From Streptomyces indicus (GTDB lineage Bacteria > Actinomycetota > Actinomycetes > Streptomycetales > Streptomycetaceae), in assembly GCF_900100315.1 (NCBI RefSeq), contig NZ_FNFF01000006.1, positions 248,001 through 312,000 of the forward strand: DNA of 64,000 nucleotides, in the 5' to 3' direction. Under the pieces are notes generated by a model. The model saw only the letters and a program-made list of their open reading frames with translations. It made no database searches and was not told where the DNA came from. The position numbers and the translations under genes are program-made. Shown here piece by piece: positions 4,132-19,083 of this stretch; position 1 is the stretch's first letter, and every line of letters starts with the position of its first letter.

Positions 4132-5517
4132 TTAGCCCGTGACAACCGTCACTTCACCGATGCCGAGCGCCTTCACGGGCTCGGCGATCTCGGCGGCGTC
4201 GCCCACGAGCACCGTCACGAGACGGTCCACCGGGAACGCGCTGACCACCGCGGCCGTGGCCTCGACGGTGCCGGTCTCGGCGAGCATCCGGTACAACTGC
4301 GCCTGGAAATCGTCCGGGAGATGCTGCTCGACCTGGTCGGCGAGGGTGCCCGCGACGGCGGCAGCCGTCTCGTAGCGCAGCGGGGCCACGCCCACGAGGT
4401 TCTGCACGGCCGTCTCGCGCTCGGCGTCGGTCAGCCCCTCGGCCGCGAGCGTGCGCAGCACCTTCCACAGGTCGTCGAGCGCCGGGCCCGTATTGGGCGT
4501 GTCCACCGAGCCGTTGATGGCCAGCAGCGAGGCGCCGGTGCCGTCGGCGGCGGAGCGCAGCACCTGCCCGAAGGCCCGTACGCCGTAGGTGTAGCCCTTC
4601 TCCTCGCGCAGGACGCGGTCCAGACGGGACGTCAGGGTGCCGCCGAGGCAGTACGTGCCGAGCACCTGCGCCGGCCACACTCGGTCGTGGCGGTCCGCGC
4701 CGACGCGGCCGATGAGCAGCTGCGTCTGGACGGCACCGGGGCGGTCGACGATGACCACACGGCCGGTGTCGTCGGCGGTGATCGGCGCGGCCGCGCGGGC
4801 CTCGCCGGGCGCGGCGGTCCACTGGCCGAGGGTCTCGGCGAGCAGCGCGTCGAGGTCGGTGCCGGCGAGGTCGCCGACGACCACGGCGGTGGCGGTCGAG
4901 GGGCGCACCCACCGCTCGTAGAAGGCGCGCACGGCCGCCGCGTCGATGGCCGAGACCGTGGCCTCGGTGCCCTGGCGCGGGCGCGACATGCGCGCGGTGG
5001 CCGGGAACAGCTCCTTGTAGAGCTCCTTGGCGGCGCGGCGGGCGGGGTTGGCCAGCTCGTGCGGGATCTCGTCGAGCCGGTTGCGGACCAGGCGGCTGAT
5101 CTCGCTTTCCGCGAACGCCGGTGCGCGCAGGGCGTCGGCGATCAGACCGAGCGCCTTCGGCAGCCGCGAGACGGGGACTTCCAGCGAGATCCGGACGCCC
5201 GGGTGGTCGGCGTGCGCGTCCAACGTGGCGCCGCAGCGCTCCAGTTCGGCCGCGAACTCCTCGGCGCTCATCTTGTCGGTGCCCTCGGAGAAGGCGCGCG
5301 CCATGATGGTGGCGACACCGTCGAGGCCCTCGGGCTCGGCGTCCAGCGGCGCGGCGAGGAAGACCTCGACGGCCACGACCTGCTGGCCGGGGCGGTGACA
5401 GCGCAGGACCGTCAGACCGTTGGGCAGCGCGCCGCGCTCGGGCGCCGGGAAGGCCCAGGGCTTGGCCTCGCCGGCCTGGGGCTGCGGGTGGAATTCCATG
5501 GTGGAGAGCTCGGTCAC
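4132..5517 (-). CDS. M16-family peptidase subunit lacking the zinc motif
   Basis: A 461-residue M16 (pitrilysin/insulinase) protein and the second gene of a pair. It keeps the family fold (start near ALPNGLTVL, C-terminal M16_C region with VIVDRPGAVQTQLLIG and the EEKGYTYGVRAF motif) but has no HxxEH sequence where one is expected (VATIMARAFSEGT). It is therefore the non-catalytic partner that, in bacterial two-subunit M16 enzymes, helps form the substrate chamber. The GTG start at 5517 overlaps the upstream stop by four bases (GTGA), showing translational coupling. A longer reading frame upstream exists but runs inside the partner gene. Confidence 0.9.
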   Translation of the reverse strand: MTELSTMEFHPQPQAGEAKPWAFPAPERGALPNGLTVLRCHRPGQQVVAVEVFLAAPLDAEPEGLDGVATIMARAFSEGTDKMSAEEFAAELERCGATLDAHADHPGVRISLEVPVSRLPKALGLIADALRAPAFAESEISRLVRNRLDEIPHELANPARRAAKELYKELFPATARMSRPRQGTEATVSAIDAAAVRAFYERWVRPSTATAVVVGDLAGTDLDALLAETLGQWTAAPGEARAAAPITADDTGRVVIVDRPGAVQTQLLIGRVGADRHDRVWPAQVLGTYCLGGTLTSRLDRVLREEKGYTYGVRAFGQVLRSAADGTGASLLAINGSVDTPNTGPALDDLWKVLRTLAAEGLTDAERETAVQNLVGVAPLRYETAAAVAGTLADQVEQHLPDDFQAQLYRMLAETGTVEATAAVVSAFPVDRLVTVLVGDAAEIAEPVKALGIGEVTVVTG

Positions 5518-6854
5518 TGCCCCGCCTCCTCGTCCTCGTCCTGTACCTCTGCGTGCGTGGGCTCGTACACCAGAACCGCCCTGTTGTCGGGGCGCAGGCG
5601 GGCCTTCGCCACCGCTTGGACCTCCTCTGCCGTGACCGACAGGACGCGGTCGACGGCGGTGAGGGCGAGCTGCGGGTCGCCGAACAGCACGGCATAGCGG
5701 CACAGTTCGTCCGCGCGGCCCGCGACCGTGCCGAGCCGGTCCAGCCACTCGCGCTCCAACTGGGCCTGGGCGCGCTCCATTTCCTCCGCCGTCGGGCCCT
5801 CGGCGGCGAACCGCGCGAGCTCCTCGTCGACGGCGGCCTCGATCACCGGCACCTCGACATCACCGGAGGTCTTCACGTCCAGCCAGCCGAGCGAGGGCGC
5901 ACCCGCCAGGCGCAGGAGCCCGAATCCGGCGGCCACGGCGGTCTGGTCGCGCCGTACGAGACGGTTGTACAGCCGCGAGGACTCGCCGCCGCCGAGCACG
6001 GTCAGGGCGAGGTCGGCGGCATCGCACTCGCGGGTGCCGTCGTGCGGCAGCCGGTAGGCGGCCATCAGCGCGCGGGCCGGCACCTCCTCCTCGACCACCT
6101 CGCGCTTCTGCTCGCCGATGATCTCGGGCAGCGCACCGTCGCGCGGCGGCTGCTTGCCGTCGTGCGAGGGAATCGAGCCGAAGTACTTCTCGATCCACGC
6201 GAGGGTCTGCTCGGGGTCGATGTCGCCGACGACCGAGAGCACCGCATTGTTCGGCGCGTAGTACGTACGGAAGAAGTTCCGCGCGTCCTCCAGGGTGGCC
6301 GCGTCCAGGTCGGCCATCGAGCCGATCGGCGTGTGGTGGTAGGGGTGGCCCTCCGGGTACGACAGGGCGGTGAGCTTCTCGAACGCCGTGCCGTACGGCA
6401 CGTTGTCGTAGCGCTGGCGGCGCTCGTTCTTCACCACATCGCGCTGGTTCTCCATCGACTCGTCGTCGAGGGCGAGCAGCAGCGAGCCCATGCGGTCGGC
6501 CTCCAGCCAGAGCGCGAGCTCCAGCTGGTGGGCGGGCATCGTCTCGAAGTAGTTGGTGCGCTCGAAGCTGGTCGTGCCGTTGAGCGAACCGCCCGCGCCC
6601 TGCACCAGTTCGAAGTGCCCGTTGCCCTTGACCTGGCCCGAGCCCTGGAACATGAGGTGCTCGAAGAGGTGGGCCAGGCCCGTGCGCCCCTTCACCTCGT
6701 GCCGTGAACCGACGTCGTACCAGAGACAGACTGCCGCGACAGGGGTCAGGTGGTCCTCGGAGAGCACGACGCGCAGGCCGTTGGCCAGCCGGTGCTCGGT
6801 CGCTGTCAGGCCGCCGGAGCCGGCCTCGGCGGTGGCCGTGTGACCCATGGGCAT
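5514..6854 (-). CDS. M16-family zinc peptidase, catalytic subunit
   Basis: A 446-residue peptidase with the inverted zinc motif HLFEH (GLAHLFEHLMFQG, about residues 61-73) and a downstream Glu-rich helix. The N-terminal catalytic domain is followed by M16_C (about residues 195-375, with EEVPARALMAAYRLP). It should cleave peptides or small proteins in the cytoplasm together with the zinc-less partner encoded immediately downstream. ATG at 6854 is preferred because GAAGGGA lies about five bases upstream; a second ATG six bases later is too far from it. It is transcribed away from parC, with a tandem 12-base repeat just upstream. Confidence 0.92.
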   Translation of the reverse strand: MPMGHTATAEAGSGGLTATEHRLANGLRVVLSEDHLTPVAAVCLWYDVGSRHEVKGRTGLAHLFEHLMFQGSGQVKGNGHFELVQGAGGSLNGTTSFERTNYFETMPAHQLELALWLEADRMGSLLLALDDESMENQRDVVKNERRQRYDNVPYGTAFEKLTALSYPEGHPYHHTPIGSMADLDAATLEDARNFFRTYYAPNNAVLSVVGDIDPEQTLAWIEKYFGSIPSHDGKQPPRDGALPEIIGEQKREVVEEEVPARALMAAYRLPHDGTRECDAADLALTVLGGGESSRLYNRLVRRDQTAVAAGFGLLRLAGAPSLGWLDVKTSGDVEVPVIEAAVDEELARFAAEGPTAEEMERAQAQLEREWLDRLGTVAGRADELCRYAVLFGDPQLALTAVDRVLSVTAEEVQAVAKARLRPDNRAVLVYEPTHAEVQDEDEEAGQ

Positions 6855-13141: not shown

Positions 13142-14290
13142 TCAGCCGAGCTCAGGCACAAACTGGGGCGCCTCCACCCCCACATACCGAGCCGCCGGGC
13201 GGATGATCTTCGAGTCCTGGGACTGTTCCAGGATGTTCGCGCTCCAGCCGACCACCCGCGCCGCGGCGAACGTCGGGGTGAACATGTCGCGGGGCAGGCC
13301 GCACAGTTCCATGACCACGCCCGCGTAGAACTCGACGTTCGTGTGCAGCTCGCGGTGGGGCTTGAGTTCCGCCAGGATCGCTTCCACCTCGCGCTCCACC
13401 TCCACCGCGAACTCGACCAGCGGGCCGCCGAATTCCTGCGCGATGCCGCGCAGCATGCGCGAGCGCGGGTCCTCCGTGCGGTAGACGGGGTGGCCGAAGC
13501 CCATGATGCGGTCGCCGGCCAGGACCCGTTCCCTGATCCACGCGTCGATGCGGTCCGGGGTGCCGATCGCGTCCAAGGTGTCGAGGGCCCGGCTGGGTGC
13601 ACCGCCGTGCAGCGGGCCCGAGAGCGCGCCGACCGCGCCGACCAGGCAGGCCGCCACATCCGCGCCGGTCGACGTGATAACGCGGGCCGTGAAGGTGGAC
13701 GCGTTGAATCCGTGGTCGATCGTGGAGATCAGGTAGCGCTCGACCGCCCGGGTGTGCGCGGGGTCCGGCTCCGAACCGGTCAGCATGTAGAGGTAGTTGG
13801 CGGCGTACGAGAGGTCCGCGCGCGGCTCGACCGGCTCCAGGCCCTGCCCCAGGCGGTGCAGCGCGGTGAGCAGGGTGGGGACGACCGCGCTCGCGGCGAG
13901 CGTGTCCGCGAGCCGCTGCTCCGGCCTGATGTCGTACACCGGGCGGAAGCCCTTCGCCGCGCCGAAGAGGGACAGCGCCGAGCGCAGCCCCGCCAGCGGT
14001 CCGGAGAGCGCCGAGGCCCGGGCGATCGCGGGGAGCGCCGCGCGCACCTCCTCGGGCAGGGCGCGCAGGGCCGCCGTCCGCGCGGTGAACTCGCGCAGCG
14101 CGGCCGCGTCCGGCAGTTCGCCCAGCACCATCAGGTGCCATACGTCCTCGAAGGTGCGGCGCTCGGCCAACTCGACGGCCGAGTACTGGCGGTAGTGGTA
14201 AAAGCCCTCGCGGCCCCGTACATCCCCGAGTGCGGTGTGCGTGACGACCACGCCCGCGAGACCGCGCGGGAACTCACTGGTCAACGACAT
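13142..14290 (-). CDS. Citrate synthase family protein (citrate/2-methylcitrate synthase)
   Basis: A 382-residue citrate synthase-family enzyme that condenses acetyl-CoA or propionyl-CoA with oxaloacetate. The conserved segments are present: the substrate His region GPLHGGAPSRAL, then MGFGHPVYRTEDPRSRML with the second catalytic His, and the C-terminal ELHTNVEFYAGVVMELCG containing the expected acidic/aromatic cluster. The length is that of the short bacterial type. It is one of two paralogues facing each other across a shared 130-base promoter region. The main TCA citrate synthase is expected elsewhere, so this may be a secondary or methylcitrate-type enzyme. ATG at 14290 follows GAGGGGAG. 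Confidence 0.9.
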   Translation of the reverse strand: MSLTSEFPRGLAGVVVTHTALGDVRGREGFYHYRQYSAVELAERRTFEDVWHLMVLGELPDAAALREFTARTAALRALPEEVRAALPAIARASALSGPLAGLRSALSLFGAAKGFRPVYDIRPEQRLADTLAASAVVPTLLTALHRLGQGLEPVEPRADLSYAANYLYMLTGSEPDPAHTRAVERYLISTIDHGFNASTFTARVITSTGADVAACLVGAVGALSGPLHGGAPSRALDTLDAIGTPDRIDAWIRERVLAGDRIMGFGHPVYRTEDPRSRMLRGIAQEFGGPLVEFAVEVEREVEAILAELKPHRELHTNVEFYAGVVMELCGLPRDMFTPTFAAARVVGWSANILEQSQDSKIIRPAARYVGVEAPQFVPELG

Positions 14291-14348
14291 GGGTGCTGCT
14301 CCCCTCTTCTGAACTTGAGTCGACTGTCCATGCTTGACTTGTTACGTG

Positions 14349-14370
14349 TCAATATTGATTGGATCAATAT
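14349..14370. promoter_or_regulatory. AT-rich palindromic operator between the two citrate-synthase genes
   Basis: ATATTGAT (14352-14359), spacer TGG, ATCAATAT (14363-14370) form a perfect 19-base palindrome. It overlaps a second palindrome, TCAATATTGA, at 14349-14358, and TCAATAT recurs as a direct repeat 15 bases apart. This AT-rich island in 70-percent-GC DNA sits between the divergent starts (14290 and 14420). A TTGACT at 14334-14339 is a possible -35 element. The likely ligand is the helix-turn-helix of the adjacent citrate-synthase fusion. Confidence 0.7.
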
Positions 14371-14419
14371 AAGGGCGCAGGGCGTCCATGGTGTCCAGTC
14401 GAGTCGATACGGTGAGGGC

Positions 14420-15679
14420 ATGAGCGGTGAGCAGGACGGCAGCCGGCGGCTGTCCACCAAGGAGGCGGCCGAGCGGCTCGGCGTGAAGGCCGAGACCGTG
14501 TACGCGTACGTGAGCCGCGGGCTGCTGAGCAGCAGGCGGGGCGCGGGCGGGCGCGGGTCGACCTTCGACGCCGAGGAGGTGGAGGCGCTCGCGCGGCGCA
14601 ACACCCGCGCCGCGGCCGCGAGTTCGGGCGGCGGGGAGCTCGCCGTGCGGACCCGGATCACCCTCATCGAGAAGGACCGCTACTACTTCCGCGGCGTGGA
14701 CGCGACCGAACTGGCCGCGCACTACGCGTACGAACCGGTGGCCGAATGGCTGTGGACCGGCGTCCTGCGCGAGGACGTCCGCTTCACCGCACCCGAGGAG
14801 ATCGTCGGCGCCGCGCGCCGGGCCGTGGCGGCCCTGCCCGCGCACAGCGGCCCCATGGACCGGCTGCGCGTGGCCACCATCGCCGCGGCCGCCGCCGACC
14901 CGCTCCGCTTCGACCTCGACGAACAGGCCGTGCTCGGCACGGCCCGCGCGCTCGTGCCCACCCTGGTCGACGCCCTGCCCACCGTGGGCGACTGGTCGCG
15001 CGACGAGCACACCCTCGCCGGCCGGCTGTGGCCGCGCCTGACCCGCCGCGCCCCCGACGAACCGTGGATGAGCGCGCTGGACAAGGCACTTGTGCTCCTG
15101 ATCGACCACGACCTGGCCGCGTCCACCCTCGCGGTGCGGGTGGCGGCCTCGGCCCACGCCCACCCGTATGCCGCGGTCTCCGCCGGACTCGGCGTCCTGG
15201 AGGGCCCGTTGCACGGGGCCGCCAGCGGGCTCGCGCACCGGATGCTCACCGAGGTGCTCGACCGGGGCAGCGCCGCCGCGGTCGTTGCCGACCATCTGAA
15301 GGCGGGACGACGGGTCCCGGGACTCGGCCACCGCCTCTATCCGCGCGAAGACCCGCGCGCACAGGCGCTGTTCGGTGCGCTGGAGCGAGTACCGGAGGCA
15401 CACGAGGCGCTCGCCGCGGCGCGTGACGTGGTGCGGACGACCGCCCGGCACACCGAGTTGTACGCCAACGTCGACCTCGCCCTCGCCGTGCTGACCGTCG
15501 CGAGCGGGATGCCGCCCGAGGCGGGCGAGACCGTCTTCGCCGTGGCCCGCACCGCAGGTTGGATCGCGCACGCACTGGAGGAGTACGGGGAGCGTCCACT
15601 GCGGATGCGGCCGAGCGGCCAGTACACCGGGGCCCGTCCACCGCAGCCGCTCCCGCTGCCGACGCGGGCCACGGCGTAA
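14420..15679 (+). CDS. Helix-turn-helix/citrate synthase fusion protein
   Basis: A 419-residue protein. Residues about 10-60 form a MerR/excisionase-type DNA-binding domain (LSTKEAAERLGVKAETVYAY, followed by an SRGLLSSRR wing). Residues about 75-415 form a citrate synthase domain with EGPLHGAASG and PGLGHRLYPREDPRAQ, so both histidines are kept. It may be an active enzyme that binds DNA, or a sensor of oxaloacetate/acyl-CoA that controls the facing citrate-synthase gene and itself through the shared palindrome. ATG at 14420 gives MSGEQDGSRR and follows GGTGAGGG; the frame is open far upstream, but that part is antisense to the neighbour. HTH-citrate synthases are known from actinomycete genomes, but I know of no established function. 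Confidence 0.88.
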   Translation: MSGEQDGSRRLSTKEAAERLGVKAETVYAYVSRGLLSSRRGAGGRGSTFDAEEVEALARRNTRAAAASSGGGELAVRTRITLIEKDRYYFRGVDATELAAHYAYEPVAEWLWTGVLREDVRFTAPEEIVGAARRAVAALPAHSGPMDRLRVATIAAAAADPLRFDLDEQAVLGTARALVPTLVDALPTVGDWSRDEHTLAGRLWPRLTRRAPDEPWMSALDKALVLLIDHDLAASTLAVRVAASAHAHPYAAVSAGLGVLEGPLHGAASGLAHRMLTEVLDRGSAAAVVADHLKAGRRVPGLGHRLYPREDPRAQALFGALERVPEAHEALAAARDVVRTTARHTELYANVDLALAVLTVASGMPPEAGETVFAVARTAGWIAHALEEYGERPLRMRPSGQYTGARPPQPLPLPTRATA

Positions 15680-18180: not shown

Positions 18181-19083
18181 TCAAGCCGACCCCTTCACCA
18201 CACTCCACCCCCCGTCCACCACCAGGCTCGCCCCGGTGATGTAGCCCGCCTCGTCCGCCGCGAGGAACGCGATCGCGGCCGCCACCTCCTCAGGGGTCCC
18301 GAACCGCCCCGCCGCCGTCTCGGCCACGCTGCGCGCCCGGTCCTCCTCGCTCACGCGGTCCCATGCGGCGGTCATGATCGGGCCCGGCAGGACGCAGTTG
18401 ACCCGCACCTCGGGGCCGTATTCGACGGCGAGCTGGCCGCCGAGCGAGAGCAGCGCGCCTTTGGCGGCCGCGTACGCGGGGTGGCCCGGAATTCCCTTGT
18501 GAGCATGGACGGATGAGGTCAGAACCACCGCGCCGCGCTCGGCGCGCAGGTCGGGGAGCGCGGCCTTGAAGCCCAGGAAGGCGCCGGTGAGGTTGACGGA
18601 GAGCTGGCGCTGCCAGGACTCCAGAGGGAGTTCGTGCGCGGGGGCGATGTCGACCGTGAAGGCGTTCGAGACGAGCACCCCGACCGGACCGAAGGCGTGC
18701 GCGGCGTCGAGCACCCGCTCCCAGTCTGCCGGATCGGCGGCGTCGGCCCGTACGAAAGCGGCGCGTCCGCCCTTGCCGCACAGCTGCTCGGCGAGACCGG
18801 TGCCGCGCTCCTCGGCGACATCGGCGAGGACGACGGCGGCACCTTCGGCGGCCAGGCGCTCGGCGGTGGCGGCACCGATGCCGGACGCGGCTCCGGTGAC
18901 GACCGCGACACGGCCGGCGAAGCGCAGGCCGGAGCTGACCACGGCGGGGGCGGGTCGAGGGCTCGGCTCCGGACTCGGACTCGGACTTGGACTCGGGCTG
19001 GGGCTGGGGCTGGGGCTGGGGCTGGGGCTGGGGCTGGGGCTGGGGCTGGGGCTGGGGCTGGGGCTGGGGCTGGGGCTCGGCAT
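18181..19083 (-). CDS. Short-chain dehydrogenase/reductase with N-terminal Pro-Ser repeat
   Basis: A 300-residue classical SDR. The Rossmann domain begins near residue 55: VAVVTGAASGIGAATA is the cofactor motif, the catalytic Ser lies in VVLTSSVHA, and the YxxxK motif is YAAAK; the C-terminus SLVVDGGW is typical. Asp after the second strand (VVLADVAE) suggests NAD(H). Residues 2 to about 37 are almost pure Pro-Ser, encoded by a GGGGCT-type hexamer array. ATG at 19083 has GGG about eight bases upstream, but a GTG at 18942 would remove the repeat and start just before the SDR fold, so the true start is uncertain. The substrate is unknown. It is divergent from the CitA-like kinase. Confidence 0.82.
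   Translation of the reverse strand: MPSPSPSPSPSPSPSPSPSPSPSPSPSPSPSPSPSPSPEPSPRPAPAVVSSGLRFAGRVAVVTGAASGIGAATAERLAAEGAAVVLADVAEERGTGLAEQLCGKGGRAAFVRADAADPADWERVLDAAHAFGPVGVLVSNAFTVDIAPAHELPLESWQRQLSVNLTGAFLGFKAALPDLRAERGAVVLTSSVHAHKGIPGHPAYAAAKGALLSLGGQLAVEYGPEVRVNCVLPGPIMTAAWDRVSEEDRARSVAETAAGRFGTPEEVAAAIAFLAADEAGYITGASLVVDGGWSVVKGSA
18964..19077. repeat. Hexanucleotide microsatellite inside the SDR gene
   Basis: About 19 tandem 6-base units: degenerate GGACTC-type copies at 18964-18993, then about 14 near-perfect GGGCTG copies to 19077. Because the unit is a multiple of three, copy-number change alters only the length of the encoded Pro-Ser stretch. Confidence 0.92.

Follow-up and report, generated by a model that had tools for sequence, protein, structure and literature searches.

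A citrate synthase with a MerR-like DNA-binding head as a predicted one-component regulator acting through a three-box operator in Streptomyces and other bacteria

The window analysed here, a stretch of 64,000 nucleotides from Streptomyces indicus (contig NZ_FNFF01000006.1), encodes a protein in which a helix-turn-helix (HTH) head is fused to a citrate synthase domain, divergently arranged to a second, stand-alone citrate synthase. With a probability of roughly 0.7, based on comparison of sequences, we interpret this fusion as a MocR-like one-component regulator built on a citrate synthase, most likely a repressor, which would sense a ligand in its enzyme pocket and act through a three-box operator lying between the two genes.

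The fusion (14420-15679, plus strand; 419 aa, with the ATG at 14420 and the stop codon ending at 15679) bears its DNA-binding domain at residues 11-61 (14450-14602, plus strand), where three Pfam models score above their cut-offs: HTH_17 (34.3 bits, cut-off 27), MerR (31.3 bits, cut-off 28.2) and MerR_1 (27.4 bits, cut-off 21.6). A weak match to Sigma70_r4_2 falls under its cut-off. Residues 74-398 (14639-15613, plus strand) correspond to the Citrate_synt domain (PF00285, 222 bits), and none of the named citrate synthase subfamilies of NCBIfam reaches its cut-off for the fusion, the best being TIGR01800 at 169 versus 421 bits. The protein thus has the Pfam domain, the fold, the catalytic His/His/Asp and the substrate-binding Arg residues of a citrate synthase, together with a MerR/HTH_17 head above cut-off as in MerR-type proteins. 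An AlphaFold2 model (58 sequences; pLDDT 92.9, pTM 0.82, residues 67-71 below 50) superposes in its enzyme part on citrate and 2-methylcitrate synthases (Foldseek E ~1e-15; Z up to 37.3 over 341 residues), a fold comparison that bears on the enzyme part and not on the HTH head. For the latter, an alignment of 57 of the 67 eligible loci plus the fusion of the window (P0002) shows the motif LGVK..T.YAYVSRG to be invariant or nearly so across the 58 sequences. The facing gene (13142-14290, minus strand) encodes, by its open reading frame and Pfam match, a citrate synthase of 382 aa. Two descriptions given by the sequence-only reading are thereby confirmed, namely an HTH fused to a citrate synthase that keeps both histidines (the catalytic Asp is kept as well) and its position opposite a stand-alone synthase. 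The stand-alone enzyme itself has Glu in place of the catalytic Asp (NVE as against NVD), as does Bacillus subtilis CitA (2c6x). Elsewhere in the window, a low-complexity repeat (18990-19083; Pro-Ser if read) lies at the 5' end of a called SDR gene and overlaps, on the opposite strand, the beginning of an ORF for a histidine kinase; the called starts are doubtful there.

The candidate operator, TCAAT-A-TTGAT-TGG-ATCAAT (TCAATATTGATTGGATCAAT; 14349-14368), was delineated by motif scans and cross-locus comparison. Its boxes 1 (14349-14353) and 3 (14363-14368) are direct repeats and box 2 (14355-14359) is inverted. The same region holds an exact 19-base palindrome, ATATTGAT-TGG-ATCAATAT (14352-14370), overlapped by a second palindrome read from the sequence, TCAATATTGA (14349-14358). 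With a G+C content of 22.7% at 14349-14370 versus 72.0% for the window, the earlier account of a perfect AT-rich 19-base palindrome and an overlapping second one in GC-rich DNA proves exact. A search for the joint motif TCAATATTGATTNNATCAAT that allows up to three mismatches gives a single match in the window (0 in 100 shuffles), and this remains the single match in the whole 8.2-Mb genome, where a reversed control pattern has none. Chance is ruled out as the source of the palindrome by the shuffles, the genome scan and the control tiles described below. It is likewise ruled out as a mere part of the promoter of the stand-alone gene by its presence at a CoA-transferase gene and before fusions with other partners.

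Of 121 Streptomyces genomes surveyed, 77 have a match to the fusion at E up to 1e-60, 75 have one to the stand-alone synthase at E up to 1e-100, and 80 carry the motif with no more than three mismatches. Those 80 comprise 76 of the 77 fusion genomes and 4 of the 44 in which no fusion was detected. The sole fusion genome without a match (G060) has a spacer one base longer. In G112, which has the motif and no detected fusion, the fusion is truncated by the contig end; in G025, G028 and G050 the matches have three mismatches and lie in or between other ORFs, on stretches that do not encode the fusion. One further genome, G027, possesses the stand-alone synthase and lacks both the fusion and the motif. 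An identical 20-base match with three mismatches away from the gene pair, TCCATATAGATTTCATCCAT, recurs in G047, G050 and G105, lying in G050 between two overlapping divergent ORFs, and is probably unrelated to the operator. At 29 of the 30 Streptomyces fusion loci listed, the core TCAAYNTTGAY occurs together with a third box. The thirtieth (L024) is the locus of G032, in which the gene pair is arranged in tandem with a copy of the operator upstream of each gene; G032 is the same DNA as locus L222 (S. aurantiacus NRRL ISP-5412; 55 of 55 sampled 100-mers). Across the class, the fusion (E up to 1e-40) occurs in 53 of 296 genomes and 14 of 114 genera, and its distribution is therefore patchy.

From these comparisons, the strongest evidence that the fusion may act on the motif in trans is an unlinked site at a CoA-transferase gene. 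Among 17 motif matches fetched from outside the gene pair, a set that leaves out six three-mismatch matches (G003, G047, G075, G101, G105 and G113), 16 sit just upstream of a CoA-transferase family III gene (CoA_transf_3, P0003). By eye, this target stands beside secreted-peptidase-like genes at loci L062-L078, and in several genomes a sodium:solute symporter gene is found nearby (PF00474 in L068). The 17th match, in G102, is adjacent to this same peptidase gene at the end of a contig. G102 is one of four fusion genomes without the stand-alone synthase; in the other three (G013, G107 and G110) the motif is present at the CoA-transferase gene only. The CoA-transferase gene is matched in 76 of the 121 Streptomyces genomes, the genome of the window (G000) being without a match. 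Within the 30 loci listed of these 76 genomes (the other 46 being left out), the core palindrome ATTGATTNAATCAAT is found at 12 or more of its 14 positions before the CoA-transferase start in 18 of 23 fusion genomes versus 0 of 7 fusion-less ones (Fisher p = 0.0004 if the genomes were independent; genomes and loci alike are related, and p-values of this kind overstate their independence). The best scores range from 7 to 10 in the seven fusion-less genomes and from 6 to 10 in the five fusion genomes without a site. On a tree of the CoA-transferase, the seven fusion-less rows are scattered, with five label changes, two of them forced by well-supported branches, and the fusion label is neither significantly clustered nor dispersed (63-65 of 500 shuffles as low).

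A scan of named genomes, using an alignment of the head and linker as query, yielded at least 591 related stretches, of which the best 80 were examined. These come from Streptomyces, Nonomuraea, Actinomadura, Nocardia, Frankia, Actinoplanes, Dactylosporangium and others, and also from metagenome-assembled genomes (MAGs) labelled Dormibacteraeota, Acidobacteria, Myxococcales and Alphaproteobacteria (single contigs, taken as labelled). Among plasmid records 68 match the query, 67 of them over at least 80% of its length; 18 of 70 records were fetched (17 of the 68 and 1 of 2), the 17 proteobacterial loci coming from the 68. The TCAAYNTTGAY core is present at 76 of these best 80 fusion loci (of at least 591) and at 14 of the 17 proteobacterial plasmid loci, versus 4 of 1715 control tiles; when the third box is also required, the respective figures become 69 of 80, 14 of 17 and 1 of 1715. 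The single such tile is the front of a synthase-fusion tandem (L185), where the operator precedes the synthase. A looser palindrome lies upstream of 75 of the same best 80 fusions; shuffled sequences give 1.2 on average and 5 at most, and control tiles 21 of 2422. As for missing sites, no recognisable operator was found at Actinopolymorpha L206, whose partner belongs to the fumarase/aspartase superfamily, or at Actinomadura sp. L161; on the proteobacterial side (17 loci) it is absent from L241 and L243, and L229 is one base short of the core.

The genes facing these fusions are diverse. Among the best 80 of the at least 591 stretches, 47 loci hold another citrate synthase, 26 a divergent gene of the homocitrate/isopropylmalate-synthase family and 7 neither. 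The 47 include the tandem arrangements of L185 and L222 (in the latter the palindrome is present and box 1 absent) and L206, in which the synthase is non-adjacent, about 2 kb past the fusion. All 26 loci with a homocitrate/isopropylmalate-synthase-family partner have the looser palindrome, the families having been looked up for two of these partners and for that of L174, and the L172 partner being a weak partial match. In Azospirillum the divergent partner is a CoA transferase III, the same family as the second Streptomyces target; in Nocardia (L169, 3866-4990) and the alphaproteobacterium Pseudoroseomonas (L236, 1351-2406) it is a DUF2332 gene; in Paraburkholderia and Thioclava an MFS transporter takes this place, with a 2-hydroxyacid dehydrogenase gene after it; and in two Comamonas the partner is the 2-hydroxyacid dehydrogenase itself. 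At a locus from a Dormibacteraeota MAG (L174; fusion at 4986-6215), the fusion has Gln at the equivalent of His264, the operator is kept and the divergent partner is an HMGL-family synthase, matching HMGL-like (PF00682) with the homocitrate synthase models under cut-off. On the basis of a sequence motif, this partner may tentatively be a Re-type citrate synthase. Across the fusion loci, then, the partner gene varies and the predicted operator is constant. Boxes 2 and 3 are separated by a distance that, to judge from these alignments, depends largely on lineage. A distance of 3 is seen for 25 of 27 Streptomyces, and one of 4 for all 14 Nonomuraea, 6 of 7 Actinomadura (the seventh is without a site) and all five Nocardia; three MAGs from other phyla have 5, and 10 of the 14 site-bearing proteobacterial plasmid loci have 7. 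Odd spacers produced by the automatic choice of boxes, namely 9 (two Actinacidiphila and one MAG), 0 (one Actinoplanes) and 3 or 6 (four proteobacterial loci), look ambiguous. The proposal of the sequence-only reading that the operator serves both the fusion and the facing gene is accordingly favored by several comparative tests; orthologous pairs do keep the palindrome in general, with the exceptions listed above.

The pocket of the enzyme domain was compared, with residue equivalents in E. coli citrate synthase numbering, across 72 fusions, comprising P0002 and the 71 of the 80 named loci (best 80 of at least 591) that pass a length filter. The equivalents of His229, Arg314, Asp362, Arg387 and Arg407 are invariant, and those of His264 and His305 are kept in 71 each. 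Adding the 17 proteobacterial fusions brings the total to 89, of which 88 or all 89 retain each of six active-site residues. The proteobacterial fusions number 18 with L213, which is already within the 72, and all 18 keep His264, His305, Arg314, Asp362, Arg387 and Arg407; their His229 equivalent is Gln in L232 and L234 only, both of which have a divergent transporter. Two family-specific changes run counter to this conservation. First, two residues past Asp362 the fusions have Ala, in 65 of the 72 and in 18 of 18 proteobacterial ones, where the three stand-alone synthases compared have Tyr. Second, the Asn of the DHExN motif is Ala in 70 of the mostly actinobacterial 72, and Asn or Thr in the 18 proteobacterial fusions, Thr being found at the two transporter-partner loci, the two Comamonas, L229, L241, L243 and L244. 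Conservation of the pocket combined with variation that follows the partner gene would be expected of a sensor, but the sample is small and made up of relatives. The idea that the enzyme pocket serves as the sensor, put forward in the sequence-only reading, thus gains indirect support from the near-invariant active site of the 72 and 17 fusions and from the pocket positions that differ with the partner lineage.

The kept catalytic Asp and His residues imply that enzyme activity may be retained and that the protein may be more than a sensor. A bifunctional trigger enzyme, that is, a catalytically active citrate or 2-methylcitrate synthase with an added regulatory role and with DNA binding that depends on turnover or substrate, is a tentative possibility that we take seriously, and one compatible with the main model. 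The equivalents of His264, His305, Asp362 and four Arg residues are kept in 71 or 72 of the 72 and in 17 of 17 fusions, beyond what ligand binding would appear to need. However, catalysis may be severely impaired or redirected by two changes, that of the DHExN Asn to Ala (70 of 72) and that of NVDFY to NVD-x-Ala (65 of 72 and 17 of 17), and L174 retains its operator despite the Gln at the His264 equivalent.

For the one-component regulator that we favor, we envisage a transcription factor derived from citrate synthase, the enzyme domain of which would dimerise, as its fold suggests, and thereby offer two MerR-like heads to the three-box operator. When bound, it would cover the promoter of the stand-alone synthase and also control its own gene, most likely as a repressor. 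Oxaloacetate and/or an acyl-CoA would probably fill the retained pocket and change domain closure; this would alter the geometry of the heads, and regulation would be relieved or switched. The variation of the spacer between lineages is not what would be expected of a rigid symmetric dimer. As a counterpoint to the model, 5 of 23 fusion genomes are without a good CoA-transferase site, and 4 of 80 (the best 80 of at least 591) and 3 of 17 loci are without the core.

The placement of the operator relative to putative promoters bears on the sign of regulation. A proposed -35 element of the stand-alone synthase (TTGACA; 14347-14352, minus strand), kept in Streptomyces loci, overlaps operator box 1, and a proposed -10 (GACAGT; 14323-14328, minus strand) lies 18 nt from it; in plus-strand reading, 27 of 30 Streptomyces loci keep the arrangement ACTGTC-18-TGTCAA. 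The mRNA of the fusion appears to be leaderless, with a proposed -10 (TACGGT; 14408-14413, plus strand) 6 nt before its ATG, and TACGGT stands 5-8 nt ahead of the ATG or GTG in 27 of 30 Streptomyces loci. A sigma-70 scan reported no promoter here, and a terminator scan was also uninformative. MerR-type operators lie between the -35 and -10 elements, with a spacer of 19-20 bp; here the proposed operator overlaps the putative -35 and the spacer to the putative -10 is 18 nt. In Ensifer (L230), box 3 directly adjoins the start codon of the fusion gene. These positions, namely box 1 over the proposed -35, the apparently leaderless fusion gene and the L230 box at the start codon, would suit repression, and from them and the analogy with MocR we propose autorepression and control of the partner, both presumably switched by ligand. 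It is also conceivable, though we consider it unlikely, that the fusion activates its divergent partner from a site overlapping or just upstream of the -35, and represses itself, in the manner of MocR. The overlap of box 1 with the partner's proposed -35 would be in keeping with this, as would the behavior of MocR factors, which, in the part of the account available, frequently lie divergent to the targets that they activate and in many cases repress themselves (PMC5320631). Against it, the last box of L230 at the start codon better fits repression, at least of the fusion itself, the promoters on which the comparison draws being putative throughout.

Other regulators also act in this intergenic region, because in S. 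coelicolor MtrA binds that of the orthologous pair in electrophoretic mobility shift assays, at a site both predicted and bound, according to the sections available of PMC12323332. By-eye comparison with that site places its counterpart, TTGACTTAACTGTCCA, at 14315-14330, beside the operator and outside it. As MtrA binds this neighboring block in S. coelicolor, control is probably combined; the difference in position rules out the palindrome as the published MtrA site. That the palindrome is instead the operator of MtrA, GlnR or a further factor governing the citrate synthase pair, with the HTH of the fusion incidental, is very improbable, for all that MtrA binds there and that citA and citA4 of Saccharopolyspora erythraea are, in the available part of PMC10704036, under negative GlnR control, since the motif is gained and lost together with the fusion, at the unlinked gene too, and recurs by fusions in Proteobacteria and other-phylum MAGs that have different partners.

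The closest functional parallel for the regulator proposed here is the MocR group, in which, per the available portion of PMC5320631, an HTH is joined to a whole enzyme, the target is often divergent, autorepression is frequent, the operator most often has two direct boxes and one inverted one, and box distances can differ among lineages. Like MocR/GabR, so far as those sources extend, the fusion places an HTH on a whole metabolic-enzyme fold, faces a divergent target gene and has direct and inverted operator boxes. Unlike them, it combines an HTH_17/MerR head with citrate synthase in place of a GntR head with a PLP-dependent fold-type-I aminotransferase, and the pathway concerned is entry to the TCA cycle; a Pfam search of the fusion shows only HTH_17/MerR, Citrate_synt and the sub-cut-off Sigma70_r4_2. 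The head is shared with the MerR family and HTH_17 (excisionase-like) proteins, with citrate synthase instead of the MerR effector domain. In S. coelicolor, the available records indicate that SCO5831/SCO5832 (citA3/citA4) can be recognised as the same pair from the neighboring genes SCO5830 (sucrase/ferredoxin-like) and SCO5829 (histidine kinase), a synteny by which SCO5831 is presumably the fusion orthologue; the window differs in having a LacI-type gene between the fusion and the sucrase/ferredoxin-like gene. The accessible parts of the literature on SCO5831/SCO5832 treat both as citrate synthases and describe no regulatory role. Caulobacter CitA is a citrate synthase with a role in cell-cycle control, and hence shares a non-catalytic function; unlike what is predicted for the fusion, no DNA binding by CitA is described in the portion available (PMC7083601). 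In literature lying mainly outside subscription journals we found no description of an HTH-citrate synthase fusion as a regulator. Enzyme-derived one-component regulators are known, and it is the use of citrate synthase, the HTH_17/MerR head and the three-box operator that appear to be new.

More broadly, we lean slightly toward the view that these fusions constitute a cross-phylum family of transcription factors with a captured citrate synthase sensor, the pocket of which, possibly still catalytic, would read a substrate or product of TCA-cycle entry. Such a family would control condensing enzymes of unrelated folds (citrate synthase or members of the homocitrate-synthase family), CoA transferases and organic-acid genes via the three-box operator, whose spacing would have diverged along with the protein lineage. 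If this is true, a large family annotated as citrate synthase or 'citrate synthase family protein' (at least 591 stretches and 68 plasmid records) would consist of regulators; any enzyme count or flux model with such fusions in it would then need correction. It would also offer a testable answer to how some bacteria sense the carbon entering the TCA cycle, with an operator predicted for several lineages, and would add another case besides MocR of a whole metabolic enzyme serving as the sensor of a transcription factor.
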